This document shows positions 27,216 through 48,907 of a DNA stretch of 64,000 bases, piece by piece. Source of the stretch: Nocardioides sp. CFH 31398 (GTDB lineage: Bacteria > Actinomycetota > Actinomycetes > Propionibacteriales > Nocardioidaceae); contig NZ_JAKUHT010000003.1 in the NCBI RefSeq assembly GCF_022436705.1, forward strand, positions 124,001-188,000, read 5' to 3'. The position numbers were made by a program, and so were the translations under genes. The stretch's first letter is position 1; each line of letters opens with the position of its first letter. The notes beneath the pieces are model-generated. The model worked only from the letters and a program-made list of their open reading frames with translations, was not told the origin of the DNA and searched no databases.

Positions 27216-27246
27216 GGGTCTCGCCGTGCGGACGCGCGGCTCGGGC

Positions 27247-29356: not shown

Positions 29357-30826
29357 CTACCGGCTCCGCACCCGGTGGATGGACTTGAAGGTGAGGTACT
29401 GGTGCAGTCCCTCGACGCCGTACTCGACGCCGAGGCCGGAGTCCCGCCGGCCGCCGAAGGGGGCGGCGTGGTTCGAGGCGAAGAAGTTGACCCCGACCGA
29501 GCCGGTGTCGAGACGCTCGGCCACGGCCTGCGCCCGGTCGGCGTCCGACGAGAACACGATGCCGCCCAGACCGTAGGCGGTGTCGTTGGCGAGGGCCACG
29601 GCGTCGTCGACGTCGGAGTAGGGCTGGATGGTGACGACCGGTCCGAACACCTCCTCGCGCGCGACGGTGGACCCGCGGGCGACGTCGACCAGGACGGTGG
29701 GCTCGATCCAGTAGCCCGGGCGGTCGAGGACACCGCCCCCGAGCACGGCTCGCGCGCCCTCCCCGCTCGCCGTGGCCAGCATCCGCCGCACGGACTCGTA
29801 CTGGCTGCGGTTGGCCACCGGACCGAACACGGTGGCCGGGTCGGACGGGTCACCCTGCGGCGCTGACCGGACCGTCCTGACCACCATGTCCACGACCTCG
29901 TCGTGGCGCGACGCCGGGGCCAGGATGCGGGTGGCGACGTAGCACGTCTGGCCCGTGTTGCGCAGGCAGGACCGGAGCAGGACGTGAGCGACCGCGTCGA
30001 GGTCGGCGTCGGGGAGGATGACGGCGCTGGACTTGCCGCCGAGCTCGAGGGTCACGGGTCGCAGCCGCTCGCCGCACGCGGCGGCGATGCGCCGGCCGAC
30101 GCCGGTCGAGCCGGTGAAGGCGATCTTGTCGACCGCGGGGTGGGTCACGAGCGCGTGGCCCACCCGGCCGTCGCCCGTCACGAGGTTGACGACCCCGTCG
30201 GGGACGCCGGCGGCCGCGCAGGCCTCGACCACGTGCCGGATGGAGAGGGGGGTCGTCTCCGCCGGCTTGATCACCACCGTGCACCCCGCCAGGAGGGCGG
30301 GTGCGAGCTTGGTCACGACGAGGTTGATCGGGAAGTTCCAGGGCGCGACCAGGGCGCACACCCCGACCGGGTCGCGACGGACCACGCTCTCCCGCGTCGC
30401 GTCGGGGAACGGCCGCACGTCGTCGGCCTCGAGGTGGGGCGCCAGCGACGCCACGTGCCGCAGGATCCCCGCCGCGTTGGCCGCCGCCCCGGCGGTCTCG
30501 GCGACCGGTGAGCCGTTCTCGCGGGTGGTCGTCGTCGCGATCTGCTCGGCGAGGCCCTCCACCTCGGAGGCGACACGTTCCAGGACACGCGCGCGCTCGG
30601 CGGGGGCGAGACGGGGCCAGGGCCCGTCGTCGAAGGCGACCCGGGCCGCCCTCGCGGCGGCGTCGACGTCGGTCGGGGACGCCTGCGGCGCGCTCCCCCA
30701 CGCCTCGCCGGTCGCCGGGTCCACGACCTCGAGCCGCTGGGCCGACGACGACGTGACCCACCGGCCCCCGACGTACAGGTCGTCGACGTGGGTCGGCAGC
30801 CGCGGCGCGCCGCCCCCGCCGCTCAC
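29357..30826 (-). CDS. Aldehyde dehydrogenase family protein
   Basis: A 489-residue NAD(P)-dependent aldehyde dehydrogenase. VAPWNFPINLV near 153-163, GSTGVGRRIAAA near 230-241, the general-base Glu in TLELGGKSS near 253-261 and the catalytic Cys in RNTGQTCYVATR near 282-293 are all present; the C-terminal LxxYTxxKxVH-like end reads LHQYLTFKSIHRV. The enzyme oxidises an aldehyde to its acid. Its GTG overlaps the stop of the ligase gene upstream (GTGA), so it is the ninth and last gene of the carboxylase operon. Substrate unknown. Confidence 0.9.
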   Translation of the reverse strand: MSGGGGAPRLPTHVDDLYVGGRWVTSSSAQRLEVVDPATGEAWGSAPQASPTDVDAAARAARVAFDDGPWPRLAPAERARVLERVASEVEGLAEQIATTTTRENGSPVAETAGAAANAAGILRHVASLAPHLEADDVRPFPDATRESVVRRDPVGVCALVAPWNFPINLVVTKLAPALLAGCTVVIKPAETTPLSIRHVVEACAAAGVPDGVVNLVTGDGRVGHALVTHPAVDKIAFTGSTGVGRRIAAACGERLRPVTLELGGKSSAVILPDADLDAVAHVLLRSCLRNTGQTCYVATRILAPASRHDEVVDMVVRTVRSAPQGDPSDPATVFGPVANRSQYESVRRMLATASGEGARAVLGGGVLDRPGYWIEPTVLVDVARGSTVAREEVFGPVVTIQPYSDVDDAVALANDTAYGLGGIVFSSDADRAQAVAERLDTGSVGVNFFASNHAAPFGGRRDSGLGVEYGVEGLHQYLTFKSIHRVRSR

Positions 30827-32832
30827 CGCGCACCACCGGCGGCGCGCTCGGCCGTCGCCCGACGGAGGCCGACGAAGGCGTCGAGGGAGTCCGCGACCGC
30901 GAGGGTGTCCCGACTCGCGACGACGTCGGGATCGCCGCCCAGGAGCACGCGCTTGACCGGCACCTCCAGCTTCTTGCCCGTCAGGTTCCGCGGCACGTGG
31001 GGGACCACGACGAGCCGGTCGGGCACGTGGCGGGGCGACAGCTCCCGGCGGAGGGTCGAGGCCACGGTGCGGGCCAGTCCGGGGTCGGCGGGGTGCGGCT
31101 CGGCCGTCGGCTCGTCCAGCTCGACGAACAGCCACAGCTCGCCGTTGCCGCCCTCGGGGTCGTCGAGGTGGACGACCAGGGAGTCGGCGATGCCGTCGAG
31201 CTGCTCGACGACGCCGTAGAACTCGGACGTGCCGAGCCGGACCCCTCCCCGGTTCAGGGTGGCGTCGGAACGGCCGGTGACCTGGCAGCCCTGGTCGGCG
31301 CCCATGACGATCCAGTCGCCGTGCCGCCACACCCCCGGCCACGTGTCGAAGTACGACGCGCGCAGCCGCGAGCCGTCCTCGTCGCCCCACAGCCCGACGG
31401 GCATCGAGGGCATGGGGGTGGTCACCACGAGCTCGCCCGGGCTGCCGACGACGTCGTGGCCCTGCTCGTCCCAGGCGTGGACGTCGACGCCGAGGCACGG
31501 GCCCGCGATGACGCCGGCGCGCGTGGGCGTGAGCGGGTTGTCCTGGACCAGGCCCGAGCAGACGTCGGTGCCGCCGCTGCCGATGCAGGGCTGCACGCCC
31601 GGCCCGAGCTGCTCACGGAGCCACGCGAACCCCGGCAGGGGCATGGGCGCGCCCGCCGACCCGAGGACGCGCAGGCGGGAGAGGTCGACGTCCTCCAGGG
31701 TCAGGCCGGCCTTGAGGCACGCCCCCACGAAGCCCGGGCTCGCCCCCATGGTCGTCGCGCCCACCTCGGCGGCCAGCCGCCACTGCCACCCGAGGTCGGG
31801 AGACACGGGGTTCCCGTCGATCATCACGATCGCCGCGCCGACGTGCAGGCCCGAGACGAGCGAGCTCCACATCATCCAGGAGGTCGTGGTGAACCACAGG
31901 AGGCAGTCCCCGGGGCCGAGGTCCCAGGACAGCGCGTGGTTCTTGAGGTGCTCGAGGAGGATGCCGCCGTGCCCGTGGACGATCGGCTTCGGCTTCGAGG
32001 TGGTCCCGCTCGAGAACAGGACGGTGAGCGGGTGGTCGAACCCGACCGGCTCGTACGTCGGCTCGGCGTCCGTGTGCCCCGCCAGGAGCGTCGACCACGC
32101 CAGGGCGTCGTCGACCCGCCAGTCGCCGTACTCGACGTCGACCACGTGCCGCAACGACGGGATGCGCCGGCGGACCTCCGCGACCTCGGAGGACCGGTCG
32201 ACGGGCTTGGGCCCGTAGTCGTAGCCCCCGGCCGTCAGGAGCACGGTCGGCTCGACCTGTCCCAGCCGGTCGGCGGCGCCCGAGGGACCGAGCTCGAGGG
32301 CGCACCCCGCCCAGACCGCGCCCAGGGCGGCGGTGGCGAGGAAGCCGACCAGGGCCTCGGGGACGTTCGGCAGGTAGGCGGCCACGCGGTCGCCACGACC
32401 GACCCCGAGCGCGGCCAGCGCGGCACGGCAGGCGGCGACCTGCTGCTCGAGCTCGCCGAACGTCAGGGTCGAGGCGGGCCGGGTCTGCGAGCGGGCGTGC
32501 ACCGCGACGGCGTCGGCGGGGGCGACGCCGAAGGCGTGCTCGGCGTAGTTCAGCGCGGCCCCGGGGAACCACCGGGTCCCCGGCATGGTGCGGTCGGGCA
32601 GGACCTCGGTCGGGGCGTGCCGGGCGCGGACGCCGAAGTGGTCCCAGATGCTCTGCCAGAAGGCCTCGGGATGCCCGACCGACCACCGGTGGAGGTCGCC
32701 GACGTCGTCGAGGACCACGTCCCGCTCGGCCAGCCAGGTCAGGAACCGGCCGAGCCTCGTCGTCGCGCGGGCGTCCTCGGACGGCGTCCAGACCACGTCG
32801 CCGAGGGCCGGCACGCGGAGCCCCGTGGTCAC
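30823..32832 (-). CDS. Acetoacetyl-CoA synthetase-like acyl-CoA ligase
   Basis: A 669-residue AMP-forming ligase of the acetoacetyl-CoA synthetase type: N-terminal region with RWSVGHPEAFWQSIWDHF near 48-65 and MPGTRWFPGAALNYAEH near 83-99, P-loop VLFSSGTTSKPKPIVH near 271-286, WMMWSSLVSGL near 322-332, and the TGRSDATLNRGGVRLGTSEFY core near 540-560. The Lys needed for adenylation is in GKKLEVPVKRVL near 630. Known relatives join CoA to acetoacetate or other 3-keto acids using ATP. It follows a biotin carboxylase module in the same operon, so activating the 3-keto acid formed by carboxylation is a coherent role (inference). Confidence 0.88.
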   Translation of the reverse strand: MTTGLRVPALGDVVWTPSEDARATTRLGRFLTWLAERDVVLDDVGDLHRWSVGHPEAFWQSIWDHFGVRARHAPTEVLPDRTMPGTRWFPGAALNYAEHAFGVAPADAVAVHARSQTRPASTLTFGELEQQVAACRAALAALGVGRGDRVAAYLPNVPEALVGFLATAALGAVWAGCALELGPSGAADRLGQVEPTVLLTAGGYDYGPKPVDRSSEVAEVRRRIPSLRHVVDVEYGDWRVDDALAWSTLLAGHTDAEPTYEPVGFDHPLTVLFSSGTTSKPKPIVHGHGGILLEHLKNHALSWDLGPGDCLLWFTTTSWMMWSSLVSGLHVGAAIVMIDGNPVSPDLGWQWRLAAEVGATTMGASPGFVGACLKAGLTLEDVDLSRLRVLGSAGAPMPLPGFAWLREQLGPGVQPCIGSGGTDVCSGLVQDNPLTPTRAGVIAGPCLGVDVHAWDEQGHDVVGSPGELVVTTPMPSMPVGLWGDEDGSRLRASYFDTWPGVWRHGDWIVMGADQGCQVTGRSDATLNRGGVRLGTSEFYGVVEQLDGIADSLVVHLDDPEGGNGELWLFVELDEPTAEPHPADPGLARTVASTLRRELSPRHVPDRLVVVPHVPRNLTGKKLEVPVKRVLLGGDPDVVASRDTLAVADSLDAFVGLRRATAERAAGGAR

Positions 32833-33752
32833 CGTGCCGTGACCCCCGTGCGGGCGGCACGGACCAGCGCGGTGGCCTCGGCGAGGCTGTCGACCACCAG
32901 GTCCGGGCGCCGGTCCTCGGTCGCGGCGTCCGCGTCGTCACGGCTGTGCGTACCGGTCGTCACCAGCACGCCGACCCCGCCCGCCGTACGGGCCATCGCG
33001 ACCTCGAGGCTCAGGTCGTCCCCGGCCACCAGCAGCTCGCTCGAGGCGACGCCGAGCCGACGGGTGGCGATGTCGATGGCGGCCGGCGACGGCTTCCCGA
33101 GGACCTCGTAGGAGCGGCCCGTGACGTAGGAGAGGCCGTTCGCGATGAACCCGCCCAGGCCGGCGGTGCGGCCGCCGGCGGTGGCGAACGCGGGCGCGTC
33201 GCTCGTGACCAGCAGCGGCGCGCCGTTCCAGACGGCCTCGGCCGCCACCTGCAGGCGCTTCTGGTCGAACCCCACGTCCCAGCCGACCAGCACCACCTCG
33301 GCGCGACGAGCGGCGTCACGCTCCTCGGGATCGATGACGGTGACCCCGGCGTCACGCAGCACCTGGACGACACCGGACCCGCCGAAGGCGAGGGCCGGCC
33401 GGTCCCCGAACCGGTGCAGGATGGTCTCCGCGCCCACGACCGACGGGGTGAGCACGTCGTCGGGCCCGACGGGGAACCCGAGGGAGGCGAGGGACACGGC
33501 GATGTCCGCGGGTGGCCGGCTCGAGGCGTTGGTGAAGACCACGACCGGCAGGCCCAGGTCCCGCAGCTCCCGCACCGCGCCGACGGCGCCGGGCAGGGTC
33601 GCGCCGTCGTCACCCGCCGGCTGGCTCGACAGGATCAGGCAGCCGTCCACGTCGAGGACCACGCCCCGCACGTCGGCGAGCCGGGTCCGGAGGTCGCTGG
33701 ACCCGGTGGGCCCGGTGGGCCCGGTCGGTTCGGTCGGCTCGGTGACGGTCAT
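32829..33752 (-). CDS. HAD-IIA family phosphatase
   Basis: A 307-residue HAD phosphatase of the NagD/p-nitrophenyl-phosphatase type. Motif I GVVLDVDGCLIL near 28-39 (both Asp present), motif II VVFTNASSRPP near 69-79, motif III Lys in EVLGKPSPAAI near 220-230 and motif IV LVAGDDLSLEV near 245-255. The first 22 residues are Thr/Pro/Gly-rich. It overlaps both neighbours by 4 bp. In a phosphorylate-then-carboxylate scheme it could hydrolyse a phospho-intermediate; phenylphosphate carboxylase also includes a HAD-type subunit. A general repair phosphatase is the alternative. Confidence 0.85.
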   Translation of the reverse strand: MTVTEPTEPTGPTGPTGSSDLRTRLADVRGVVLDVDGCLILSSQPAGDDGATLPGAVGAVRELRDLGLPVVVFTNASSRPPADIAVSLASLGFPVGPDDVLTPSVVGAETILHRFGDRPALAFGGSGVVQVLRDAGVTVIDPEERDAARRAEVVLVGWDVGFDQKRLQVAAEAVWNGAPLLVTSDAPAFATAGGRTAGLGGFIANGLSYVTGRSYEVLGKPSPAAIDIATRRLGVASSELLVAGDDLSLEVAMARTAGGVGVLVTTGTHSRDDADAATEDRRPDLVVDSLAEATALVRAARTGVTAR

Positions 33753-35266
33753 GACGCCCCCTCCCGTCGCAGGTGGACTCTCTCGTCGCCGAGCCGCACG
33801 TCGATCTCCCGCCAGTTCGGCAGGGCGCCGGCGGCGCGGACGAACTCCGCTGCCGAGGTCACGTCGTTCCCGGCGGCCTCCGCCGACCACGCCGGTGCCG
33901 GGGTGACGATCGCGTCGACCTGCTCGGCGGGCAGGACCGTGCGGAGCAGCACCTCGCCGTCCCCGACGTCGGCGCGGCCCGTCTGCTCGACGACGCTCGC
34001 GCGGAGGTCGGCGAGCTCGGGCTCGGCCTGCGGCCGGTCGAGCTCGCGCGTCCGCGGGTTGTCGGCGGCGCGGGAGGCGACCTCGGGGTCGACCGGGCCG
34101 GGCGGCTCGCCGAAGTGACCCAGCAGGTAGCGCAGCACCTCGTCCGGCATGCGTGACCAGGGCTCCTGCCCGGCCTGCCGGGCGAGGACGTTCATGACCG
34201 CCTGGCTGCCGACGAACTGGCTGTAGGGCGTCACCATGATCGGGTAGCCCAGCGCGGCCCGCACCGACCCCACCTCGTCGAGGACGGCCGGCAGCAGGTC
34301 GAGCTGACCGATCTCCGAGAGCTGGCGGCGCAGCGTGCCCATCATCCCCCCGGGCACCTGGTGGCGCTGGTAGGCGAGGTCGAGCTCGGTGGGGCGGCCG
34401 GGCTCCAGGCCCTGGCTCGACGCGATGACCCCGATGATCCGCTCCGCCTCGTGCAGCGGCCCGAGCTCGATGTCGGTGCCGATCCCCACCGCGGCCAGGT
34501 TCTCCACGAGGCGGACGGCGGACGGCTGGCTGGTCCCGTTGCTGAGCGCGCCCAGGGCGGTGTGCAGCACGTCGATGCCGAGCTGGGCCGCCACCACGTA
34601 GACCTCCGGGGCGAGACCCGTGGTGCAGTGGCTGTGGAGCTCCAGGGACCGGTCGCCGGAGGCCGCCCTGAGCTGGGGCACGAGCGTGCGGGTCCGCTCC
34701 GGGGTCAGCAGCCCGCCGGGGTCCTTGAGGTAGATCGCGTCGACGTTCTCGTCGGCGGCGAGCGTCTTGGCGGCCGCGGCGTACAGCGCGTCGTCGTGGA
34801 CCGGGGACTCGGTGAAGGTCACCGCCGCCACGACCTGCTCGATGCCCTCCTCCTTGGCCAGCCGCGCGATGGCGGACGCCTGGGCGGTGTCGTTCATCGG
34901 CTCGGCGATCTGCAGCCGCCGCAGGCCCGACTCGGCGAGCATGCGCATCGACAGACGCATCACCGACTGCGGCGAGCGGTCCCAGGACATGAAGCGCATG
35001 CCGGTGGTGATGAGGGCGAGCGGCGTCCCGGGGGTGAGCGCGCGCATGCGGCGGATGCGCTCCCAGGGGTCCTCGTGGTGCCAGCGCACGCCGACCGAGA
35101 GGTGGGTGGACGAGGTGAAGTCGAGGGCCAGGAAGCCGGCCGCCTCGAGGTGCGGGGCCAGTGCCTCGACCATGCCGGTGGTCAGGCCCGCCGCCCCCCA
35201 CAGGCTCTGGTTGCCGTCGCGGGTGCTGGTGTCGACCAGCCGGACGGACGTCGCGGGCGCGGTCAT
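33749..35266 (-). CDS. Biotin-dependent carboxyltransferase subunit (pyruvate carboxylase B / oxaloacetate decarboxylase type)
   Basis: A 505-residue DRE-TIM barrel carboxyltransferase. Visible are LVDTSTRDGNQSLWGAAG near 9-26 (usual RDGxQSLxATR), EPMNDTAQASAIARL near 117-131, the metal-site Lys in AIYLKDPGGLL near 172-182 (usually KDMAGLL) and metal-binding HSH in LELHSHCTTGLA near 205-216 (usually HTHDTSG). The C-terminal ~100 residues follow the PYC-OADA domain. Changes at three normally fixed spots (ATR lost, KDMAG to KDPGG, HDTSG to HCTTG) suggest that the acceptor is not pyruvate. It acts with the biotin carboxylase and carrier encoded immediately upstream. All junctions overlap by 4 bp. 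Confidence 0.88.
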   Translation of the reverse strand: MTAPATSVRLVDTSTRDGNQSLWGAAGLTTGMVEALAPHLEAAGFLALDFTSSTHLSVGVRWHHEDPWERIRRMRALTPGTPLALITTGMRFMSWDRSPQSVMRLSMRMLAESGLRRLQIAEPMNDTAQASAIARLAKEEGIEQVVAAVTFTESPVHDDALYAAAAKTLAADENVDAIYLKDPGGLLTPERTRTLVPQLRAASGDRSLELHSHCTTGLAPEVYVVAAQLGIDVLHTALGALSNGTSQPSAVRLVENLAAVGIGTDIELGPLHEAERIIGVIASSQGLEPGRPTELDLAYQRHQVPGGMMGTLRRQLSEIGQLDLLPAVLDEVGSVRAALGYPIMVTPYSQFVGSQAVMNVLARQAGQEPWSRMPDEVLRYLLGHFGEPPGPVDPEVASRAADNPRTRELDRPQAEPELADLRASVVEQTGRADVGDGEVLLRTVLPAEQVDAIVTPAPAWSAEAAGNDVTSAAEFVRAAGALPNWREIDVRLGDERVHLRREGAS

Positions 35267-36645
35267 CGCGGTGCCTCCTCGAGCGGGGGTGGCCAGGCGG
35301 CGGGCAGCCACTGCGTGGTGACGCCGCCGGCACGGAAGTCGGGGTGGGACAGGACGGCCTCGTGCACGGGCGTCACCGTGCTGACGCCCTCGACGCGCGT
35401 GGCCCGGAGGGCGGCGAGCATGCCGTCGACCGCCGCCTCCCGGTCGTGGGCCCGCACGATCACCTTCGCCAGGAGGCTGTCGTAGTACGGCGGGAACAGG
35501 TAGCCCTCGTGCACGTGGGTGTCGATCCGCACCCCCGGCCCCCGGGGCCACTCGACCGCGGTGATCCGCCCGGGCGTCGGGCGGAAGTCGGCCGCCGGGT
35601 CCTCCGAGGTGATCCGGCACTCGATGACGTGCGCCGGAGGGACCGCCGGGAGGTCGGGCAGGCCGTGGTGCAGGCCGGCGGCGAGGCGGAGCTGGGCGGC
35701 CACCAGGTCGATCCCGAAGGCCTCCTCGGTGACGGGGTGCTCGACCTGGATGCGGGCGTTGACCTCGAGGAAGACGACGGTGGCGGGCTCGGTGGCCGAC
35801 GCAGGGTCCGACGTGGTGTCCACGAGGAACTCGACCGTCCCGGCGCCCCGGTACCTCAGGTGGGACACGAGGCGGCGGGCGCTGTCGTGCAGCAGCGCAC
35901 GGGTGGCCGGACCGATCCCGGGTGCCGGGCACTCCTCGACCAGCTTCTGGTGCCGACGCTGCACCGAGCAGTCCCGGTCGCCGGCCACGACGCAGCCGCC
36001 CTCGCCGTCGCCGAAGACCTGCACCTCGACGTGGCGGGCGGCGGCGAAGAACTTCTCGAGGTACAGGGCGCCGTCGCCGAAGCCCGCGCGCGCCTCGGCG
36101 GCCGCCTGGTCGACGAGCGTCGGCAGCTGGTCCTCGTGCTCGACGAGGTGGATGCCGCGGCCGCCACCGCCGTGGACGGCCTTCAGCAGCACGGGGTAGC
36201 CGATCTCACGCGCCGCGTGGACCGCCCCGTCCAGGTCCTTGACCTCGGCGCCCGCCGCGACGGGGACGCCCGCGGCGACGGCCACCGCACGGGCGGTGTT
36301 CTTGTCGCCCACCGAGCGGAGGGTGTCGGGCCGTGGCCCGGCGAGGGCGATGCCGGCCTCGTCGAGCATCTCGCCGAGCTCGACCTTCTCGCTGCAGAAC
36401 CCGTAGCCGGGGTGGAGCACGTCGGCCCCCGCCATCACGGCCGCCTGGACCAGCAGCTCGGGTCGCAGGTAGGACAGCGACGGCTGCGGCGGGCCGATCA
36501 CCAGGACGCGGTCGGCGAGCCGGGCGGCCAGGGAGTCCGCGTCGGCCGAGCTCGCGGCCAGCACCGCCTCGAAGCCGAGCCGCCGGCAGGCCGCGACGAT
36601 CCGGACCGCGATCTCACCCCGGTTCGCGACGAGGACGCGGGTCAT
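35263..36645 (-). CDS. Biotin carboxylase subunit (ATP-grasp)
   Basis: A 460-residue biotin carboxylase: N-terminal VLVANRGEIAVRIVAACRRLG near 4-24, HPGYGFCSEK near 78-87, the glycine-rich ATP lid KAVHGGGGRGIHLV near 157-170, and EVNARIQVEHPVTE near 291-304 with the catalytic Glu/Asn/Arg set. It carboxylates the biotin of the carrier protein using ATP and bicarbonate. Length equals stand-alone AccC-type enzymes. Downstream of the carrier gene (4-bp overlap) and upstream of the carboxyltransferase. The active site looks complete, so the module should work. Confidence 0.93.
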   Translation of the reverse strand: MTRVLVANRGEIAVRIVAACRRLGFEAVLAASSADADSLAARLADRVLVIGPPQPSLSYLRPELLVQAAVMAGADVLHPGYGFCSEKVELGEMLDEAGIALAGPRPDTLRSVGDKNTARAVAVAAGVPVAAGAEVKDLDGAVHAAREIGYPVLLKAVHGGGGRGIHLVEHEDQLPTLVDQAAAEARAGFGDGALYLEKFFAAARHVEVQVFGDGEGGCVVAGDRDCSVQRRHQKLVEECPAPGIGPATRALLHDSARRLVSHLRYRGAGTVEFLVDTTSDPASATEPATVVFLEVNARIQVEHPVTEEAFGIDLVAAQLRLAAGLHHGLPDLPAVPPAHVIECRITSEDPAADFRPTPGRITAVEWPRGPGVRIDTHVHEGYLFPPYYDSLLAKVIVRAHDREAAVDGMLAALRATRVEGVSTVTPVHEAVLSHPDFRAGGVTTQWLPAAWPPPLEEAPR

Positions 36646-37166
36646 GCCGGCTCGACCCGCAGCAGGACGTCGCCGTGCTCGACCATGACGCCGTCCTCGA
36701 CGAGGATCTCGGCCACGCGGCCGGCGACTCCTGCCGTGACCTGGTTCATCATCTTCATGACCTCCAGGATCGCCACGGTGGTGTCCGGCTCGACGAGGTC
36801 GCCGACCCGGACGAACTCGGCCCTGTCGGGCGCCGGACGGCGGTAGAGGACGCCCAGGATCGGCGCCGTCACGTCGACGAGGTCACCGGCTGCGGACGAC
36901 GGCGCGGACGACGGCACGGACGACAGCACGGGGGCCGCCGACGCCGGCGGGGCCGACGGCGTCGGGGCGGACGCCGCGGGGGCGGGCGTCGCCGGGACAG
37001 GGGTGGCGGCGGCAGCGGCGGGGGCGGCGTCACGTGAGGCGGACAACCCACCGGCGGCGCGGGACACCCGGACCGAGACGCCGTCGGCGACGACCTCGGC
37101 CTCCACCACGCCCGACTCGTCCAGCTGGGTGAGCAGCGCGAGGACGTCGGACCACGTCGTGCTCAC
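36642..37166 (-). CDS. Biotin carboxyl carrier protein
   Basis: A 174-residue carrier: an N-terminal ~55-residue segment, an Ala/Pro/Ser-rich flexible linker (about 58-98) and a C-terminal biotinyl domain (about 100-174). The biotin-acceptor Lys lies in ILEVMKMMNQV near 142; the canonical motif is EAMKM, so the Ala is Val here, a tolerated variant seen in some carriers. It starts with GTG overlapping the stop of the PEP-binding gene and is followed by the biotin carboxylase gene. The three-protein layout (carrier, carboxylase, transferase as separate chains) is unusual for a pyruvate-type carboxylase in actinobacteria. Confidence 0.9.
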   Translation of the reverse strand: MSTTWSDVLALLTQLDESGVVEAEVVADGVSVRVSRAAGGLSASRDAAPAAAAATPVPATPAPAASAPTPSAPPASAAPVLSSVPSSAPSSAAGDLVDVTAPILGVLYRRPAPDRAEFVRVGDLVEPDTTVAILEVMKMMNQVTAGVAGRVAEILVEDGVMVEHGDVLLRVEPA

Positions 37167-38296
37167 GAGCCGCCCCCCGCCCGGCTGCTGAGGGACTGCA
37201 CCATCGAGAGGTAGGACGTCACCGGCGAGGGGGCCGGCGTCGTCGCCCTCCTCGCGGTCACGACGGTCTCGGGCCGGCTCTGGAGGAGCAGGAACCGGTG
37301 CGACCCGTCGGCGTCGCGGGCCATGGCCCACTCGATGTCCTGCGGGGCGCCGTAGTGCCTCTCGACGCTCACCATGATGTCGGCGAGCTCGCGGAGCTGC
37401 TGGTCGTCGAGCGACGGCTCGTCGGCCCGCTCGGCGGGCACGGGCACCGTCGCGGTGCCGGTGCCGCCCGGCGCCGGCACGCACTGCTGCTCCTTGTGCG
37501 TGATGGTGCGGCTGCGGACGGAGCGCTGGACCTTGTCGATCCAGAACTCGTCGGGCGTCACCTCCCCGGACACCACCGTCTCGCCGAGCCCCCAGCTGGC
37601 GTTGACCGCCATGACGGAGGGGTCGCCGGTCCGCGGGCTCACGGTGAACCCGACGCCGGCCACCTCCGCGTCGACCATCTCCTGCACCGCCACGCTCATG
37701 AGGACGGCCTCGTAGCGGGCCTGGTCGTCGAGCTTGCTGCGGTAGGCGATGGCCTGCGGGGTGAACAGGCTGGCCCAGCAGTCGCGGATGCGGGCGACGA
37801 CCTCGTCGATCCCCACCACCCACAGGTAGGTCTCCTGCTGGCCGGCGAAGCTGGTCGCCTCGCCGTCCTCGGCCACGGCCGACGACCGGACCGCCACCGG
37901 GACCTCCGCGACGCCGGCACGGGCGCACAGCTCGGCGTAGCCCGCGCGGATGGCGCTCTCGACGTGCTCCGGGATCGGCGCGGCGCCGATGATCTCCACC
38001 GCGTGGCGCTGCACCTCGCGCAGGGCGGCGTTGTCGCCGGGGTCGACGCCGGCCGTCCAGGAGCTGATCTGCTCGCGCAGCCCGCCGTGCTCGATGACCT
38101 GCTCCCAGGCGTCGACGGTGATCGCGAAGCCGCGCGGCACCGGGATGCCGGCGCTCGTCAGCTCGCCGAGGCTGGCGCACTTGCCGCCGACCTGGGGTCG
38201 GTCGTCCTTGCGCAGCTCGTCGAACCAGCGGATCGCCGGGGTGTCGGTCACGGACACGGAGGGTCCCTCCTCGTGGCGGGTGATCAGGTCAGGCAT
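37163..38296 (-). CDS. PEP/pyruvate-binding (ATP-grasp) phosphotransferase subunit, PpsB/PEP-synthase N-domain type
   Basis: A 377-residue stand-alone N-terminal domain of PEP synthase. QVGGKCASLGEL near 35-46, VAVRSSAVAEDGEATSFAGQQETYL near 135-159, VQEMVDAEVAGVGFTVSP near 204-221 and NASWGLGETVVSGEVTPDEF near 232-251 are the ATP-binding signatures; DIEWAMARD near 323-331 ends the lid. It lacks the swivelling His domain and the TIM barrel of PEP synthase. The His domain is in the next gene. In size (about 40 kDa) and split it resembles PpsB of phenylphosphate synthase. It would split ATP to phosphorylate its partner's His. The 8-bp overlap with the partner gene fits equimolar production. Confidence 0.85.
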   Translation of the reverse strand: MPDLITRHEEGPSVSVTDTPAIRWFDELRKDDRPQVGGKCASLGELTSAGIPVPRGFAITVDAWEQVIEHGGLREQISSWTAGVDPGDNAALREVQRHAVEIIGAAPIPEHVESAIRAGYAELCARAGVAEVPVAVRSSAVAEDGEATSFAGQQETYLWVVGIDEVVARIRDCWASLFTPQAIAYRSKLDDQARYEAVLMSVAVQEMVDAEVAGVGFTVSPRTGDPSVMAVNASWGLGETVVSGEVTPDEFWIDKVQRSVRSRTITHKEQQCVPAPGGTGTATVPVPAERADEPSLDDQQLRELADIMVSVERHYGAPQDIEWAMARDADGSHRFLLLQSRPETVVTARRATTPAPSPVTSYLSMVQSLSSRAGGGS

Positions 38297-40160
38297 CGAG
38301 GATCGTCACCGTCCCGGTGTCGCCGTCGACGCGGATCAGGTCCCCCGTCCTGATGGCGGAGGTCGCGTTGCCGGTGCCGACGACCGCCGGGAGCCCGTAC
38401 TCGCGGGACACGATCGCGGCGTGGCACATGATCCCGCCGATGTCGCTCACGGCGCCCTTGATGCGGGCGAAGACGGGCGTCCAGCTGGGCGAGGTGATGG
38501 GGGCGACGAGGATCTCGTCCTGGAGCAGGTCGTCGAGCCCCTGGGGGCTCATCACGACGCGCGCGCGGCCCTCCACGACCCCGGGGGAGCCGGCGAAGCC
38601 CTCGAGCACCTTGGCGTCGTCCTCGGCCGCGAGCCACTTCTGCACCTGCTCGTCGGTGATGCCCCAGAGCATGATGGTCATCGGCTCGACGATGGCGCCC
38701 GGAGCGGGGCCGAGGGCCGGCGGCGGCAGCTCGGCGCGGAGCACGTCGAGCATGCGACGGCGCTCGGCCACGATCTTCGGCCAGTACGACGGGCCGATGG
38801 GCTCACCGCCGGAGCACCAGGAGATCTGGACGTCCGCGACGGCGTCGGCCAGCTCGGCGCGCCGCAGGAAGAACATGTCGTCGACCTGGTCGAAGAACCC
38901 GAACCGCACGAAGACCTCGCCGAGCTCGCGCATCTTGTTCCAGAACACCGTCATGTACCAGTGCTCGATGTAGAAGTTGTGGTTCTCGACGTACGGGAAG
39001 ACCGTCTTCGACAGCCCGAGTGCGTCGTCGAAGGCCTGGCGGGCCTCGCCCTCGGGGATCAGCTCGCGGTAGCGCGCCGTGACGGCGTCCCGCTCGGCCT
39101 CGACCTCGGCGACGGGCCGCGACAGGTCCTCGCCGTTGCGCAGGCGGCCGACGTACTCGCCCACCATGCCCAGGGGGAAGGTCGGGTCGTCGTTCCAGCT
39201 GCGGTGGTGGTGGTAGAAGCCGTTGCCGTAGGAGAAGTTGAACCACGGGTCGGCCGAGACCTCCCACTCCGCGAGCCACTGGCGGCCGGCCTCGTCCGAG
39301 GACAGGTCCTGGGTCAGCGCACCGAGGTCGGTGACCCCCACGACGCGGTCGGCGACACCGAGCTCGATCGCCTTCGCGGCGAGACGCTTCAGCTCGTCGT
39401 CCGGCCGGAACAGCAGGACGTCGACGCCGCTGACCATCTGGGCGACCTGCTGGTCCTTGATCTCGGGGAAGTGCGACTTCACCGTCATGAGGAAGTTCAG
39501 GTAGGCGGCGTAGCCCATGTTGAGCATCTCGCTGTGCAGGTTCCACGTCGCGTCGAGCGAGGCGAGGATCGCCTGGAAGGCGACGAGGAGGTCGTTGGCC
39601 TCGGTGACGCCCCGCCCGGCGAGGACGCTCTCCTGGGGCTCGAAGTCCCCCAGCGCCGGGAGCTCCAGCTGCTGCAGCGCGGCGATCTGGGCTCGGACCT
39701 TGTCCTCCCACCGCGCGTAGAGGTCGGGCCAGTTGGCGTAGTAGTGGCCGACACGGGGGCCGAACTCGGCGGCGCGCCGCTCGAGCTCGGCCGGGTCGTC
39801 CACCCCGAGCGCCGACATGTACATGTGCCCGTTGACCACACGGATGTCCATGCCGAGGGCGGGCGGCAGCGCGAACACGCGGGTGTTCATCACCCCGACG
39901 CTCATGTACGCGCTGTCGGCGGTCGCGATGTCGAACGGCGGCATCGGCTCGGGGAACTGCATGCCGTTGCGGAACCAGGTGCGCTTGTCGTCCTTCTCCC
40001 GCCGCTCCTCGAGGAAGAGGTTGAAGTAGGAGTACATGTCGCGCCAGTTCTCGGCACCGGCCGGGGCCGCGACCTCGTACGGGTCGGGGAAGCGGCGTCC
40101 GCCGGTGGGGGCCGCCGTGCCCGACTCCGTGGTCGTCGGCTCGTTCTCGATGGTGGTCAT
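38289..40160 (-). CDS. PEP-utilising mobile-domain protein, PpsA/phenylphosphate-synthase alpha-like
   Basis: A 623-residue protein. The C-terminal ~90 residues are a PEP-utilising swivel domain: SPGVVEGRARVV near 528-539 and GGIMCHAAIVSREYGLPAVVG near 575-595, with phospho-acceptor His580. The N-terminal ~500 residues have no motif that I can name but contain aromatic-rich stretches (NFSYGNGFYHHHRSW; YVENHNFYIEHWYMTVFW) likely to form the substrate chamber. The same plan, ~70 kDa with the active His near residue 570, is found in PpsA of phenylphosphate synthase, where the N-terminal part binds phenol. Inference: it moves a phosphoryl group from His580 to an enol or phenol-type hydroxyl. A glycyl-free, TIM-barrel-free build excludes ordinary PEP synthase. 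Confidence 0.82.
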   Translation of the reverse strand: MTTIENEPTTTESGTAAPTGGRRFPDPYEVAAPAGAENWRDMYSYFNLFLEERREKDDKRTWFRNGMQFPEPMPPFDIATADSAYMSVGVMNTRVFALPPALGMDIRVVNGHMYMSALGVDDPAELERRAAEFGPRVGHYYANWPDLYARWEDKVRAQIAALQQLELPALGDFEPQESVLAGRGVTEANDLLVAFQAILASLDATWNLHSEMLNMGYAAYLNFLMTVKSHFPEIKDQQVAQMVSGVDVLLFRPDDELKRLAAKAIELGVADRVVGVTDLGALTQDLSSDEAGRQWLAEWEVSADPWFNFSYGNGFYHHHRSWNDDPTFPLGMVGEYVGRLRNGEDLSRPVAEVEAERDAVTARYRELIPEGEARQAFDDALGLSKTVFPYVENHNFYIEHWYMTVFWNKMRELGEVFVRFGFFDQVDDMFFLRRAELADAVADVQISWCSGGEPIGPSYWPKIVAERRRMLDVLRAELPPPALGPAPGAIVEPMTIMLWGITDEQVQKWLAAEDDAKVLEGFAGSPGVVEGRARVVMSPQGLDDLLQDEILVAPITSPSWTPVFARIKGAVSDIGGIMCHAAIVSREYGLPAVVGTGNATSAIRTGDLIRVDGDTGTVTILDA

Positions 40161-41842
40161 GCGGGCTCCTCGCTGGTGCTGGTCCTGCTGGCGGGTGTGG
40201 TGACGGTGGCGTCGGGGTCGAGGCCGAGGTCGCCCGCGATGGTCCGCCAGCAGTTGAGGCTGTTGCCCCGACCGATGCCGGATCCCGAGTGCATCGAGGA
40301 CGAGCAGTTGTAGAGGTTGGGCAGGACGGTGCGGTAGCCGGACAGCTCGGGGACCGGCCGGAACCGGCCCTGCTGGCTCGCCATCGTGGTGCCCTGGCTG
40401 TAGCCGCCCTCGAGCATGTCGGGGTGCGTCGCCAGGACGTCGCGCGGCATGGTGAGCCGGACGGACTCGATGTTGTCGGCGGTCATGTTGGGGGCGTACC
40501 GCGGCCACTCGGCGCGCAGCAGCGCCTCGACCGAGGCCTCGACGTGCTTCCACCCGTCGCGGTCGAAGAAGCGCAGCGGTGCGCAGAACTCCTCGACCCC
40601 CACCAGGTGGCGGCCCTCGGGCGCGCGGCTGGGGTCCCACAGCGTGTCGGTGCTGCTCAGCGCGAAGAACCGGCTCGAGTGGCCCTTGGTCATGATCTCC
40701 GCCTGGTAGCGCGTGGCCAGCCAGTCGGGGTCCTTCGGTCCCCAGTAGAGACGGGGCTGCGGTCCGACCGCCGGGTCGCCGGTGAAGGAGGCGTAGTCCG
40801 GCGGCTCGTGGACCGCGACGTTGATCCAGACCAGCTGGCCGCGGTCGTAGTGCACGTTCGACAGCCGGTTGCGGGTGCGGCGCTCGAGCGGGACGTCCGG
40901 GCTGAGGTCGAGCAGCGTCTGCGGCAGGCCCAGCCCGCTCACGACCACGTCCGCCGCCACCGTGTCGCCGGACTCGAGCCGGATGCCGGTCGCGCGGCCG
41001 CCCTCGACCAGGACCTGCGCCACCCCCGCGTGGGTGTGGTACTCGACCCCGAGCCTGCGGCCCGCGCCGACGAGTGCGTCCGTGATGGCCTGCGTCCCAC
41101 CGATCGCGATGGCAGCGGGCTCCAGGGAGAGCGTCAGCGCGAGCACGTGGACCAGGCCCTGCAGCCCCGGCACGTCGTCGCCGTAGCACCCGGTCGACGT
41201 CGTGGCCGCCCGCATGAACAGCGTCCGCAGCTCGTCGGACTCGAAGAAGTCGTAGGCGAGCTGACGGACCGTCATGAACTGGTGGACCGGCTCGAGGAGG
41301 CCACCCTCCTCGAGGAGTCGCTCCAGCGGGTCGGGGGTGCCCCACGCCGGCGGCGTCGTGTAGCGGTGCTCGCCGAACGCGCGCTTCCAGCTCGACGAGT
41401 ACGCCTCGTGGATGCGCAGGTAGGTCTCGGCGTCCGCGTCGCTGAACCGGCGGATGGCCTCCTCGGTGCGCTTCACGCCCTCGGGCCACGGCTCCTGGGT
41501 GCCGTGGGCGTCGACGACCCGCCAGGCCGACCAGCCGACGAACGAGGACCCGTCGTCGAAGACCATGGCCTCGTTGCCCTCGGGGAACTCGTAGCGCAGT
41601 CCCTCGGCGTAGAGGTCGAAGTCCTTGTACGCCGGGTGCGAGTAGAAGCGGGTCCAGTGCGAGTAGTTGTTCATGCGGAACCCGGTGAGCGGGCCCTTGC
41701 TGCTGATCGCCGACCCGCCGAGGCGCCCACCCCGCTCGAAGACCCCCACGGACAGACCGGCCCGGGCCAGGTAGGGGGCGATGATCGTCGCGTGGTGCCC
41801 GCCTCCGAGCACCACTGCGTCGTACCGCGCTGAGACCGTCAC
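40157..41842 (-). CDS. FAD-dependent oxidoreductase, phytoene-desaturase (CrtI) superfamily
   Basis: A 561-residue flavoprotein. The dinucleotide-binding motif is AVVLGGGHHATIIAPYLARAG near 9-29, followed by VGVFERGGRLGGSA near 32-45; GTQAITDALVGAGRRLGVEY near 235-255 and a C-terminal SSSMHSGSGIGRGNSLN near 525-541 follow the CrtI/carotene-isomerase order. Such enzymes desaturate, isomerise or saturate C=C bonds of hydrophobic substrates. I placed the start at GTG 41842 with GGAGGA five bases upstream. It is the first gene of the nine-gene carboxylase operon, and its promoter region holds one of the four shared dyads. Substrate unknown. Confidence 0.83.
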   Translation of the reverse strand: MTVSARYDAVVLGGGHHATIIAPYLARAGLSVGVFERGGRLGGSAISSKGPLTGFRMNNYSHWTRFYSHPAYKDFDLYAEGLRYEFPEGNEAMVFDDGSSFVGWSAWRVVDAHGTQEPWPEGVKRTEEAIRRFSDADAETYLRIHEAYSSSWKRAFGEHRYTTPPAWGTPDPLERLLEEGGLLEPVHQFMTVRQLAYDFFESDELRTLFMRAATTSTGCYGDDVPGLQGLVHVLALTLSLEPAAIAIGGTQAITDALVGAGRRLGVEYHTHAGVAQVLVEGGRATGIRLESGDTVAADVVVSGLGLPQTLLDLSPDVPLERRTRNRLSNVHYDRGQLVWINVAVHEPPDYASFTGDPAVGPQPRLYWGPKDPDWLATRYQAEIMTKGHSSRFFALSSTDTLWDPSRAPEGRHLVGVEEFCAPLRFFDRDGWKHVEASVEALLRAEWPRYAPNMTADNIESVRLTMPRDVLATHPDMLEGGYSQGTTMASQQGRFRPVPELSGYRTVLPNLYNCSSSMHSGSGIGRGNSLNCWRTIAGDLGLDPDATVTTPASRTSTSEEPA

Positions 41843-41984: not shown

Positions 41985-42755
41985 ATGGCCGTACGACGCA
42001 CCGCCCCCGGGGACTCCGTGACGTTCCGCGCGCTCGGGCTCCTCAACGCCTTCGACGAGACGCACCGCGTGCTGAGCCTCAGCCAGGTCGCGCGCCGCAC
42101 CGGGACACCGCTCGCCACCACGCACCGCCGGCTCCGCGACCTGGTCGACGGCCGGCTGCTGCAGCAACGCACGGACGGGTTGTACGAGATCGGGGCCCGC
42201 ACCTGGCACCTGGGGCAGCTCGCCCGCCCGACGTCCATGCGCGAGGCCGCGCTGCCCCACCTCCAGGACCTGGTGCTGCGCACCGGGCAGACCGTGCACG
42301 TGGGCGTCCGCGACGGCCTGACCGCCCTCGTGATCGACCGGCTGGCGGGCTCGCGGACCTTCACGACGCGGCACCTGCCCGGCTCCCGCCTGCCTCTCCA
42401 CTCGACCGGCATCGGGAAGGTGCTGCTCGCCTTCGCCCCGGACGACGTCCAGCGCCAGGCACTGGCTCGCCTGACCTCCGTCACCGAGTTCACCGTGACC
42501 GACCCTGCCCGGCTCCGGCGCGACCTCGACCAGGTCCGTCGCCGGCGCCTGGCCGAGAGCCTCCAGCAGAACCGCCTCGGCGTCGGGTCGCTGGCGGTCC
42601 CGGTCTTCGGCCAGGGCGAGACCGTCATGGCCGCGATCGGCCTGCTCGCCTCCGGTGACGTGAGGCTCGCCTCGCTCGAGGACCCGCTGCGGGCCTGCTC
42701 GCACGCCGTGTCCCGGGCGGTGGAGGCTCTGGAGCAGCGCTGGTACGAGCAGTGA
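41985..42755 (+). CDS. IclR-family transcriptional regulator 1
   Basis: A 256-residue IclR protein: N-terminal winged HTH (FRALGLLNAFDETHRVLSLSQVARRTGTPLATTHRRLRDL, about 14-53) and C-terminal effector domain (HLQDLVLRTGQTVHVGVRDGLTALVIDRL near 87-115; PLHSTGIGKVLLAF near 132-145; SLAVPVFGQGETVMAAIGLL near 205-224). IclR regulators bind palindromes near promoters and respond to pathway metabolites. An operator-like dyad lies 46 bp upstream. It heads the plus-strand run toward the HD gene, the second iclR and the P450, and is divergent from the carboxylase operon. Confidence 0.9.
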   Translation: MAVRRTAPGDSVTFRALGLLNAFDETHRVLSLSQVARRTGTPLATTHRRLRDLVDGRLLQQRTDGLYEIGARTWHLGQLARPTSMREAALPHLQDLVLRTGQTVHVGVRDGLTALVIDRLAGSRTFTTRHLPGSRLPLHSTGIGKVLLAFAPDDVQRQALARLTSVTEFTVTDPARLRRDLDQVRRRRLAESLQQNRLGVGSLAVPVFGQGETVMAAIGLLASGDVRLASLEDPLRACSHAVSRAVEALEQRWYEQ

Positions 42756-42800
42756 GCGGGCGGGAGCGGACGGGAGCGGACGGGGGCGCTCCGTGGCAGG

Positions 42801-42817
42801 CTTCCGTCATGCGGAAG
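42801..42817. promoter_or_regulatory. Regulon operator 2, CTTCCG-N5-CGGAAG
   Basis: A perfect dyad (CTTCCGTCATGCGGAAG) 45 bp after the first iclR gene. Its centre contains the ATG at 42809 that is the apparent start of the HD-domain gene, which suggests that the HD gene in fact begins further down (GTG 42833, 42842 or 42860). Same form as the dyads at 41923, 44382 and 49859. Confidence 0.75.
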
Positions 42818-43591
42818 GACGGTGGGTCGCTCGTGACACCGGTGGTGTCGGCTGGGCCGGTGCGCCAGGAGCTCCCCCGTCCCGCAGCCACCCGCAACGA
42901 CCTCGGTCGTCCGCTCGACCCCGCGGTCGTCCCCGCGGTGGGGCCCGAGGTCGGCCTCCCGGGCATGCGCCCGGAGGACCGGGCGGTGTGGGACCTGGCG
43001 CTCCCCCACCTGCGGCACCGGGACAACGACGTCCACACCCTCTACTCCTACGCGATCGCGCGGGAGCTCTGCGCGCTGCACCCGGAGGCCGACGCCGACG
43101 TCGTCCTGCCGGGGATCATCCTCCACGACTCCGGGTGGTCGGAGGTGCCGATCGACCGCGTCATGGCGGCGCTCGAGCCGGGCGTGTGGTCGGCCAGCCA
43201 GGAGTCGTTCGAGACGGTGCGGCTGCACGAGATCGCCGGGGAGCGCATCGCCCGCGAGGTCCTGACCGGGCTCCACGTCCCCGAGGACCGCGTGGAGACG
43301 ATCTGCACGATCATCGAGGGCCACGACACCCGCCGGGAGGCCCTCAGCCTCGAGGACGCCCTGCTGAAGGACGCGGACCGGCTCTGGCGGGTCACCCCGC
43401 GTGCCACCGACGTGGTCATGGACTGGTTCGGGCTGACCCGGGAGCAGTCGGTGGCGCTCAACGCCGGTCGCGTGCACGGGCACCTGTTCACCGACGCCGC
43501 GAAGGTCATGGCCCGTACCCTGACCGCGGTCGGCTGGGTCGACGTCAGCGAGCAGCGGCTGGCCCTGGACCGCGAGCGTGACGGCGACTGA
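42809..43591 (+). CDS. HD-domain metal-dependent phosphohydrolase
   Basis: Up to 260 residues from ATG 42809, but that ATG lies inside operator 2; GTG 42833 or GTG 42860 would give 252 or 243 residues and place the operator at the usual distance. The HD fold is clear: DNDVHTLYSYAIARELC near 73-89, LPGIILHDSGWSEVPI near 98-113 (His-Asp pair), ICTIIEGHDTRREAL near 167-181 and LLKDADRLWRVTP near 187-199. HD proteins hydrolyse phosphomonoesters, nucleotides or other phospho-compounds. Lying among genes for a putative phosphorylating pathway, it may hydrolyse a pathway phosphoester (inference). Its end overlaps the second iclR by 14 bp. Confidence 0.82.
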   Translation: MRKDGGSLVTPVVSAGPVRQELPRPAATRNDLGRPLDPAVVPAVGPEVGLPGMRPEDRAVWDLALPHLRHRDNDVHTLYSYAIARELCALHPEADADVVLPGIILHDSGWSEVPIDRVMAALEPGVWSASQESFETVRLHEIAGERIAREVLTGLHVPEDRVETICTIIEGHDTRREALSLEDALLKDADRLWRVTPRATDVVMDWFGLTREQSVALNAGRVHGHLFTDAAKVMARTLTAVGWVDVSEQRLALDRERDGD

Positions 43592-44375: not shown

Positions 44376-44381
44376 GCCTGG

Positions 44382-44398
44382 CTTCCACCATGTGGAAG
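44382..44398. promoter_or_regulatory. Regulon operator 3, CTTCCA-N5-TGGAAG
   Basis: A perfect dyad (CTTCCACCATGTGGAAG) between the second iclR stop (44375) and the P450 start (44440). It lies 42 bp upstream of the P450 ATG, matching the distance of operator 1 from iclR 1. It marks a separate promoter for the P450-SDR-ferredoxin-reductase-hydrolase run. Confidence 0.8.
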
Positions 44399-46436: not shown

Positions 46437-46468
46437 CTCCTGCACCCACACCACCGGAAGGGGACCCT

Positions 46469-46783
46469 GTGCCCATCGTGACCTTCACCGCCGACGACGG
46501 CACCGACCGGGAGGTCGACGTCCCCGACGGGGACTCCCTCATGGAGACCGCGGTCCGTCAGGGCGTCCCCGGCATCGTCGGCGAGTGCGGCGGTGCGCTG
46601 GCGTGCGCGACCTGCCACGTCTTCGTGGTCGACGCCGACCCCGCGGACCTCCCCGCCATGGACGAGATGGAGGACGAGATGCTCTGGGGGACGGCGGTCG
46701 ACCGTCGCGACGAGTCGCGCCTGAGCTGTCAGCTGCGGCCCCGCCGCCCGATGCACGTCCGGACGCCGGAGACGCAGCAGTGA
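46469..46783 (+). CDS. 2Fe-2S ferredoxin (putidaredoxin/adrenodoxin type)
   Basis: A 104-residue ferredoxin. The cluster ligands are C-x5-C-x2-C in GECGGALACATCHVFV near 38-53 and a fourth Cys in RLSCQL near 85. MDEMEDEML near 68-76 is the acidic helix that docks redox partners in this family. GTG 46469 has AAGGGGA upstream. It passes electrons from the reductase encoded next to the P450. Confidence 0.93.
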   Translation: MPIVTFTADDGTDREVDVPDGDSLMETAVRQGVPGIVGECGGALACATCHVFVVDADPADLPAMDEMEDEMLWGTAVDRRDESRLSCQLRPRRPMHVRTPETQQ

Positions 46784-48893: not shown

Positions 48894-48907
48894 CCGGAGC
48901 CGGTCAG
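48890..48907. terminator. Palindrome across two converging stop codons
   Basis: CTGACCGG-AG-CCGGTCAG is a perfect 8-bp stem that contains the TGA of the hydrolase gene (48891-48893) on one strand and that of the amidohydrolase gene (48904-48906) on the other. The genes are only 10 bp apart. It may help stop transcription in both directions. Confidence 0.5.

Follow-up and report, generated by a model that had tools for sequence, protein, structure and literature searches.

An Hpe-type operon predicted for phosphate tagging and carboxylation of phenolic ketones in Nocardioides sp. CFH 31398, with Cre-like P450 genes and a CrtI-like flavoprotein gene alongside

Introduction

What does an actinobacterium do with an operon in which genes for a two-part phosphotransferase are followed directly by those for a biotin-dependent carboxylase, and is the chemistry new? 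The question is raised by a 64,000-nucleotide stretch of Nocardioides sp. CFH 31398 (assembly GCF_022436705.1, contig NZ_JAKUHT010000003.1, positions 124,001 to 188,000 of the forward strand; hereafter the window), which carries nine such genes on its minus strand at 29357-41842. A first-pass annotation had proposed that a ketone, as its enol, or a phenol is phosphorylated, carboxylated and then activated with CoA as a 3-keto acid, and knew of no described system of this kind.

The combination is in print, as the Hpe system in 2022 (PMC9618137), in a kinase study of 2025 (PMC12167813), and as the Acv genes of SYK-6 and the Xcc genes of EbN1 cited there; all papers are cited here from excerpts of their text. 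Rhodococcus rhodochrous GD02 degrades hydroxyphenylethanones via hpeHICBADEF (Dexter et al., 2022; PMC9618137). There, acetovanillone and 4-hydroxyacetophenone receive a phosphate at the phenol hydroxyl from HpeHI; HpeCBA carboxylates these ketones in their phosphorylated form but not when free, and HpeD dephosphorylates the product, while formation and cleavage of the CoA ester by HpeE and HpeF are only proposals (PMC9618137). Three such pathways were compared in RHA1 in 2026 (PMC13101465). The system itself is thus already described, and the remaining interest of the window is its join with Cre-like genes and with a flavoprotein.

Results

The nine genes agree with the first-pass annotation in content and in order, which is that of transcription. 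Adjacent genes overlap by 4 nt at seven of the eight junctions and by 8 nt at the other, and these overlaps make it very likely that the nine form a single transcript. Pfam finds, in turn, FAD amine-oxidase/DAO domains (the flavoprotein, Fad), only the mobile domain of phosphoenolpyruvate (PEP) utilisers (H), only PPDK_N (I), Biotin_lipoyl (biotin carboxyl carrier protein, BCCP), biotin carboxylase domains (BC), HMGL-like plus PYC_OADA (carboxyltransferase, CT), HAD, ACAS_N plus AMP-binding (acetoacetyl-CoA synthetase-like ligase, AACS) and Aldedh (aldehyde dehydrogenase, ALDH). All three parts of a biotin carboxylase are therefore present, and coordinates, Pfam, NCBIfam and junctions together bear out the overlapping genes, the named domains and the biotin-dependent carboxylating part. 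The catalytic motifs are intact in the carrier (EVMKMM, Lys138), the swivel domain (GGIMCHAA, His580), the HAD protein (DVDG) and the ALDH (GQTC). The earlier bounds hold the nine genes but miss probable partners, namely a divergent IclR gene, a P450 run at 42752-48893 and an HpeF candidate (Table 1).

The H and I proteins are consistent with a two-component kinase that has its catalytic His in a GGxxxH swivel motif, present here as GGIMCH. The top PDB match of I is 9GOJ at 372.5 bits, the runner-up chain reaching 244.4, and 9GOJ is the HpeI structure solved in the 2025 kinase study (PMC12167813). When the predicted model of H (pLDDT 69.0) is compared with solved folds, rifampin phosphotransferase entries take the first six places, with E values up to 3.8e-11 and the next row at 1.8e-3; HpeH is likewise related to rifampin phosphotransferase (PMC12167813). 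In a midpoint-rooted tree without support values, built from 26 H proteins of related loci (one of them, L084_2, the window again) and that of the window, the window protein groups with those of L006, L007 and L027, adjoining the L008 group and apart from H proteins encoded beside P450 genes. A reading of H and I as a PEP synthase was rejected, since the domains lie on separate proteins and Pfam finds no pyruvate barrel.

To place the operon among its relatives, genomes were scanned with the CT, and 79 distinct loci were kept of 259 confirmed stretches. Twenty-two of these are close, being actinobacterial with 52-75% CT identity. H and I lie beside the carboxylase genes in 15 of the 22, so that the co-occurrence on which the first-pass annotation had staked its proposal is found elsewhere, and 18 of the 22 have an IclR match. 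For sequence comparison with GD02 we used L008, a Rhodococcus metagenome genome, whose order IclR-IclR-H-I-BCCP-BC-CT-HAD-AACS, followed by an HpeF relative, fits the described GD02 layout. The window shares its order from H to AACS. The H, I, BC, CT and HAD proteins of L008 have masses of 70.4, 39.9, 49.4, 57.7 and 31.2 kDa, and those of GD02 are 71.2, 40.6, 49.3, 57.4 and 30.2 kDa if B and A are taken as BC and CT by size (PMC9618137). As a separate matter, Table 1 of that paper assigns the carboxyltransferase to HpeB and the biotin carboxylase to HpeA, whereas the masses (HpeA 57.4, HpeB 49.3 kDa) fit the reverse (compare L008 6994-9965; PMC9618137).

HpeD- and HpeE-like genes sit directly downstream of the carboxylase genes, and NCBIfam names the ligase acetoacetate--CoA ligase, above cut-off. 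The HpeF candidate is 64% identical to the protein that follows the ligase in L008 and L124, and has homologues in seven of the 15 loci listed (L005, L008, L009, L010, L012, L020 and L027). L124 is itself of interest: it lies at 318673-336169 on the 1.39-Mb plasmid NZ_CP113952.1 of Rhodococcus sp. JS3073 and carries a full hpeHICBADEF-like set, and JS3073 is absent from the four further genomes named in the excerpts of the 2022 paper (PMC9618137).

In its active site the carboxyltransferase appears unlike a pyruvate enzyme. In the alignment its metal and carbamyl-Lys positions are kept, and the Arg of the LRGQN motif, which presumably binds the carboxylate of pyruvate, is replaced by Thr in the window and in 21 of the 22 close loci, L008 included, the 22nd being cut off there. 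The Ser/Thr that precedes NL is Gly in the window and in 20 of the 22, and Ser in two. The Arg is kept in all 12 pyruvate/oxaloacetate-like loci (30-35% identity), a contrast that is partly circular because these 12 were called pyruvate-like by their LRGQN/LRAQN motif. The other 45 loci are mixed at this position, with Arg in ten, Thr in L024, L025, L026, L073, L045 and L054, and other residues or gaps in the rest. Judged by these residues, the site pattern is that of the Hpe group. The top NCBIfam model for the CT is pyruvate carboxylase subunit B, at 284 bits, which would suit a pyruvate carboxylase or oxaloacetate decarboxylase of the usual kind that has a PEP synthase as its neighbour; this score, however, lies below the cut-off of 402, both site residues are replaced, and H matches no pyruvate-binding domain in Pfam, so that such an explanation is hardly conceivable. 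Pyruvate carboxylase and transcarboxylase were accordingly rejected for the CT by its site residues, and the ordinary pyruvate-type activity that the first-pass annotation had named as fatal to its proposal is not what a site without the pyruvate-type Arg would suggest.

On the basis of the L008 gene order, the mass fit between L008 and GD02, the 9GOJ match, the H tree, the Thr in the CT, the HpeF candidate and a 4-hydroxybenzoate 3-monooxygenase encoded in the genome (PRK08243, 523 bits, cut-off 351), we consider the operon to be very probably an Hpe-type pathway, in which phenolic ketones are tagged with phosphate and then carboxylated. By homology, the HpeHI-like pair would pass phosphate from ATP via phospho-His to the phenol hydroxyl of 4-hydroxyacetophenone or a related compound. 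Once phosphorylated, this compound would be carboxylated at its methyl ketone by the biotin carboxylase; the HAD phosphatase would strip the phosphate, the ligase would make the beta-ketoacyl-CoA, and the HpeF candidate would cleave this to 4-hydroxybenzoate and acetyl-CoA. A search of the genome bearing on vanillate demethylase gave three ring-hydroxylase alpha-subunit matches. The sequence of phosphorylation, biotin-dependent carboxylation and CoA activation as a 3-keto acid that had been proposed at first thus stands, as in GD02, but the ketone enol does not, the phenol hydroxyl being the site phosphorylated in GD02. The domain content would allow an undescribed route by phosphorylation and carboxylation of a ketone enol; yet the same gene set has been published as Hpe, with phenol phosphorylation shown (PMC9618137, PMC12167813), and we regard the enol route as highly improbable.

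Several observations weigh against the Hpe assignment. Identities between the window and L008 are moderate (H 58%, I 54%, CT 59%, AACS 42%), and the substrate may consequently differ. Among the 22 close loci, three (L013, L015 and L017) have H without an adjoining I, and four (L018, L022, L023 and L039, several of them on short contigs) have neither. Since the CT of the window was the query by which the genomes were chosen, their neighbouring genes are biased toward the window-like. The HpeF candidate lies outside the operon, and the operon carries Fad and ALDH genes, both absent from the GD02 cluster. The monooxygenase falls below the cut-off of TIGR02360 (416.6 versus 538.7 bits).

Divergent from the operon, a plus-strand run encodes an HD-domain protein, a second IclR regulator, a cytochrome P450, a short-chain alcohol dehydrogenase (SDR), a 2Fe-2S ferredoxin, a ferredoxin reductase and an alpha/beta hydrolase. 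The P450 matches the PDB entries 5xjn and 5gwe, which we take to be CreJ, at 523.6 and 522.4 bits, and the next chain reaches 255.6; the HD protein has no match among solved structures in a sequence search. In the excerpts, the paper that uses 5GWE in vitamin D docking does not name CreJ (PMC10879549), and another names CreJ as CYP288A2 only (PMC9357085). CreH, CreI, CreJ and CreD form an alkylphenol oxidation system (PMC9549646), and the cre genes are ordered creJ-I-H-G-F-E-D-C (PMC7764795). This order is mirrored, with one HD gene extra, by a related locus, L106 (P450-I-H-HD-SDR-ferredoxin-ferredoxin reductase-HD-ALDH).

The presence of the P450 was then counted in genomes from 21 of the 79 loci, 19 of which are among the 22 close actinobacterial ones (L015, L023 and L039 left out). 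At 50% identity or more it occurs in 11 of these 19 hpe-bearing actinobacterial genomes and in none of 295 other sampled ones, where, as in all our family and phylum control scans, part of each genome's first-look candidates was scored and misses are not absolute (Fisher p ~1e-15, which ignores kinship and the choice of the 19 genomes). Klenkia carries the whole gene set around L005, with a single kinase pair of Cre-like type and two further swivel-domain matches in the genome. The genome of the window likewise has one H of Cre/Hpe type, besides a paralogue at 28% identity (contig C49) and a 943-aa frame with a swivel-domain match (contig C35), and a search at E <= 1e-8 found no Cre-type HI pair of its own. 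The C49 paralogue belongs to a second, distant two-component kinase at 22990-26118 of that contig (L127, L003), with the H-like protein at 28% identity and a separate ATP-grasp gene.

A single Cre/Hpe-type H in each of these two genomes suggests that one kinase may serve both halves, and we lean towards the view that one phosphate tag is shared by the Cre-like and the Hpe genes. The Cre-like P450, ferredoxin, reductase and SDR would then oxidise a phosphorylated 4-alkylphenol at its ethyl group, and 4-ethylphenol would pass through 4-ethylphenyl phosphate, the alcohol made by the P450 and the ketone made by the SDR to the carboxylase, phosphatase, ligase and HpeF, ending as 4-hydroxybenzoate. 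Two points stand against a serial route: eight of the 19 hpe-bearing genomes, several of them metagenome genomes, have no P450 at 50% identity or more, and L019 has two kinase pairs, one for its hpe set and one for its cre-like set, which implies that the two halves can also be separate. Both would suit two independent modules, an Hpe module for 4-hydroxyacetophenone and acetovanillone and an incomplete Cre module for 4-cresol, with no serial use of the tag, as would the separate divergent runs and the separate IclR genes of the window. The lone H of the window's genome and that of Klenkia argue the other way; they differ in type, which suggests that either kinase can serve both modules, and we give independent modules a real but smaller chance. 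GD02, for its part, does not grow on 4-ethylphenol (PMC8461187).

The first gene of the operon encodes the flavoprotein Fad. It passes Pfam Amino_oxidase and DAO, and its predicted model (pLDDT 86.0) is closest to the gamma-carotenoid desaturase 4rep (Z 32.5, rmsd 2.9, 469 residues aligned). It is nevertheless below every NCBIfam cut-off among the 11 families listed, including CrtO (80.1 bits versus 1000) and crtI_fam (56 versus 238.1). Fad thus shares the CrtI/CrtO fold yet misses the cut-offs of the carotenoid desaturase and ketolase families, and the terpene or carotenoid metabolism that a CrtI-like gene might suggest was rejected, its partner genes being aromatic. Solved structures give only distant sequence matches (best 2.3e-06). 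None of the 50 structure-match rows listed for Fad has a VAO/PchF title, which, with no dedicated kinship test, excludes nothing.

Fad occurs in six of the 19 hpe-bearing actinobacterial genomes at 61-87% identity (one homologue, G562:C65, has a TGA inside the match) and in none of 395 other phylum and 148 other family genomes sampled (Fisher p ~4e-9, with the same disregard of kinship and choice). It is also found at 49-50% in both anaerobe genomes scanned, Desulfosporosinus and Dethiobacter. The order in Blastococcus (L027) is Fad-SDR-H-I-BCCP-BC-CT-HAD-AACS-HpeF; for the P450 this genome offers no more than a partial match at 43%. In Frankia, an IclR-Fad pair runs up to a contig end that lies close to the end of Fad, and another contig starts with an apparent Fad tail followed by SDR-H-I, while in Desulfosporosinus (L024) a 50% Fad and then an SDR lie behind CT and BC. 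In L108 a 48% Fad homologue adjoins the alpha and beta genes of an electron-transfer flavoprotein (ETF), which suggests that Fad is a dehydrogenase. In a search of PLSDB plasmids, which gave 48 records, all of the 20 listed were below 28% identity.

PchF, a flavocytochrome at the start of the EbN1 route, is thought to make the secondary alcohol there. The place of Fad before the SDR, in an anaerobe as well, suggests that it does the same, and we propose that Fad is an oxygen-independent alkylphenol dehydrogenase/hydroxylase. Tentatively, it might feed the entry point used by the P450, for example by turning a 4-alkylphenol into a quinone methide, which adds water. The distribution also holds points against this role. 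Fad was not found at E <= 1e-30 in 13 of the 19 hpe-bearing genomes. H and I are both missing from the Desulfosporosinus locus, the H relatives elsewhere in the genome being 30-32% identical and on other contigs, and the metal positions are not conserved in the aligned 35% CT of L052. In two metagenome genomes, G551 (Microbacteriaceae) and G554 (actinobacterial), Fad lies away from the hpe genes, although it shares a contig with the P450 at a distance of 17 kb; the one of these Fad sites that was scanned (L105) has it between glyoxalase and TerC/aconitase genes.

The desaturase fold, the ETF genes beside the L108 homologue and a weak match to 4-oxocyclohexanecarboxylate 2-dehydrogenase (24.9 bits, cut-off 1000) would also fit an enzyme that aromatises a cyclohexanone-type compound by successive desaturation, supplying the kinase with a phenol. 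That match spans only 52 residues and is far under the cut-off, the neighbouring SDR and hydroxyacetophenone genes fit a step from ethylphenol to the ketone equally well or better, and a literature search on 4-oxocyclohexanecarboxylate desaturase found no paper; we think aromatisation improbable. The full proposal, an aerobic 4-ethylphenol pathway in which Cre and Hpe steps follow each other on one phosphate tag and Fad represents a new class of oxygen-independent alkylphenol dehydrogenase/hydroxylase with a fold presumably unlike that of VAO/PchF, is a speculative one that we would not expect to hold in every part.

Other genes were noted near relatives of the CT and of Fad, and near the operon. 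The plasmid pBAR1 of Sphingomonas bisphenolicum (L125, 4058-10348) carries a 44% CT relative with BCCP, BC and HAD genes, with a 3-keto-5-aminohexanoate cleavage protein, a Tm-1-like protein and an upstream carotenoid oxygenase as neighbours, and with no kinase match within the 15 kb. Tm-1-like genes (PRK02399) also lie near carboxylase and Fad genes in the two anaerobes (L024 1161-2396, L052 8650-9900), and this family may belong to an alternative cleavage branch. Downstream of the operon, 24786-28341 encodes a flavin reductase, a second P450, a glyoxalase-like protein and an old yellow enzyme. Among the 15 related loci listed none of these four is a best match, and on this ground the old yellow enzyme and the second P450 (25-28 kb) were rejected as participants.

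Table 1. Predicted genes of the operon and of the adjoining runs in the window
Feature	Position	Strand	Basis
Fad, CrtI/CrtO-fold FAD oxidoreductase, first gene of the operon	40157..41842	-	Pfam, NCBIfam, predicted model
HpeH-like kinase subunit, substrate-binding and swivel His domain (His580)	38289..40160	-	Pfam, NCBIfam, tree, model
HpeI-like kinase subunit, ATP-grasp	37163..38296	-	PF01326; best PDB match 9GOJ
HpeC-like biotin carboxyl carrier protein, 17.4 kDa	36642..37166	-	Pfam, NCBIfam, biotin motif
Biotin carboxylase subunit, 48.6 kDa	35263..36645	-	Pfam, NCBIfam
Carboxyltransferase subunit, OadA/PC-type, non-pyruvate site pattern	33749..35266	-	Pfam, NCBIfam, alignment
HpeD-like HAD-IIA phosphatase	32829..33752	-	TIGR01460, 102.3 bits (cut-off 100.15)
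HpeE-like beta-ketoacid CoA ligase (acetoacetate-CoA ligase family)	30823..32832	-	TIGR01217, 664 bits (cut-off 520.9)
Aldehyde dehydrogenase, perhaps CreC-like 4-hydroxybenzaldehyde dehydrogenase	29357..30826	-	Pfam, NCBIfam; 52% homologue ends the cre-like run of L106
IclR regulator, divergent from the operon	41985..42755	+	Pfam, NCBIfam
HD-domain protein, CreD-like phosphohydrolase candidate	42752..43591	+	PF01966; homologues in L005, L020, L067 and twice in L106
Second IclR regulator	43578..44375	+	
CreJ-like cytochrome P450	44392..45690	+	PDB 5xjn/5gwe matches; cre-like neighbours in L106
CreG-like short-chain alcohol dehydrogenase	45687..46436	+	Homologues in related loci, L106
CreF-like 2Fe-2S ferredoxin	46469..46783	+	PF00111
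CreE-like ferredoxin reductase	46780..48036	+	L106 gene order
Alpha/beta hydrolase	48033..48893	+	PF00561; 75% homologue in L005, the sole one among 15 loci listed
HpeF candidate, Amidohydro_2, putative beta-ketoacyl-CoA hydrolase	48904..49788	-	PF04909; homology to L008/L124

Discussion

4-Hydroxyacetophenone and acetovanillone are products of lignin for which few degraders have been reported (PMC9618137, PMC13101465). An island in nature that couples alkylphenol oxidation with carboxylation would widen the known substrate range and offer a second parts list for lignin upgrading, and the flavoprotein is a concrete candidate for one step in both aerobes and an anaerobe. In the titles and abstract openings of open-licence papers we found no description of Cre and Hpe in series, a scope outside which lie supplements, including the gene clusters of Fig. 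S5 of the 2022 paper.

Compared with known systems, the window is most like Hpe of GD02, with which it shares the kinase pair, the three-part biotin carboxylase, the HAD phosphatase and the CoA ligase, arranged alike and overlapping for the most part by 4 nt, as well as a nearby HpeF candidate; it differs in that this candidate is detached, a CrtI-like flavoprotein gene precedes H, an ALDH gene ends the operon and a P450 run lies alongside (PMC9618137). The Acv genes of Sphingobium SYK-6, acvABCDEF, are homologous and syntenic to hpeHICBAD, but SYK-6 has no HpeE or HpeF homologues and appears to use VceA/VceB instead (as cited in PMC9618137). The Cre system for 4-cresol in Corynebacterium glutamicum, compared through its gene list, resembles the window in the CreJ-like P450, the CreG-like SDR and the CreF- and CreE-like ferredoxin and reductase, and the HD protein and ALDH could be CreD and CreC (PMC7764795, PMC9549646). 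Unlike Cre, the window has an Hpe-type kinase pair in place of the Cre-type pair and an adjoining carboxylase operon. In phenylphosphate synthase/carboxylase of Thauera the carboxylase partner is UbiD-type, whereas that of the window is biotin-dependent by its domains. The p-ethylphenol and 4-hydroxyacetophenone route of Aromatoleum aromaticum EbN1, compared by description, is entered by PchF, whereas the window has a P450 and perhaps the CrtI-like flavoprotein for this purpose. EbN1 carries pchF and hped (PMC4630880) to convert ethylphenol, and its biotin-dependent 4-hydroxyacetophenone carboxylase, XccBCA, is clustered with kinase homologues, as the carboxylase of the window is with its kinase pair (PMC9618137, PMC8461187).

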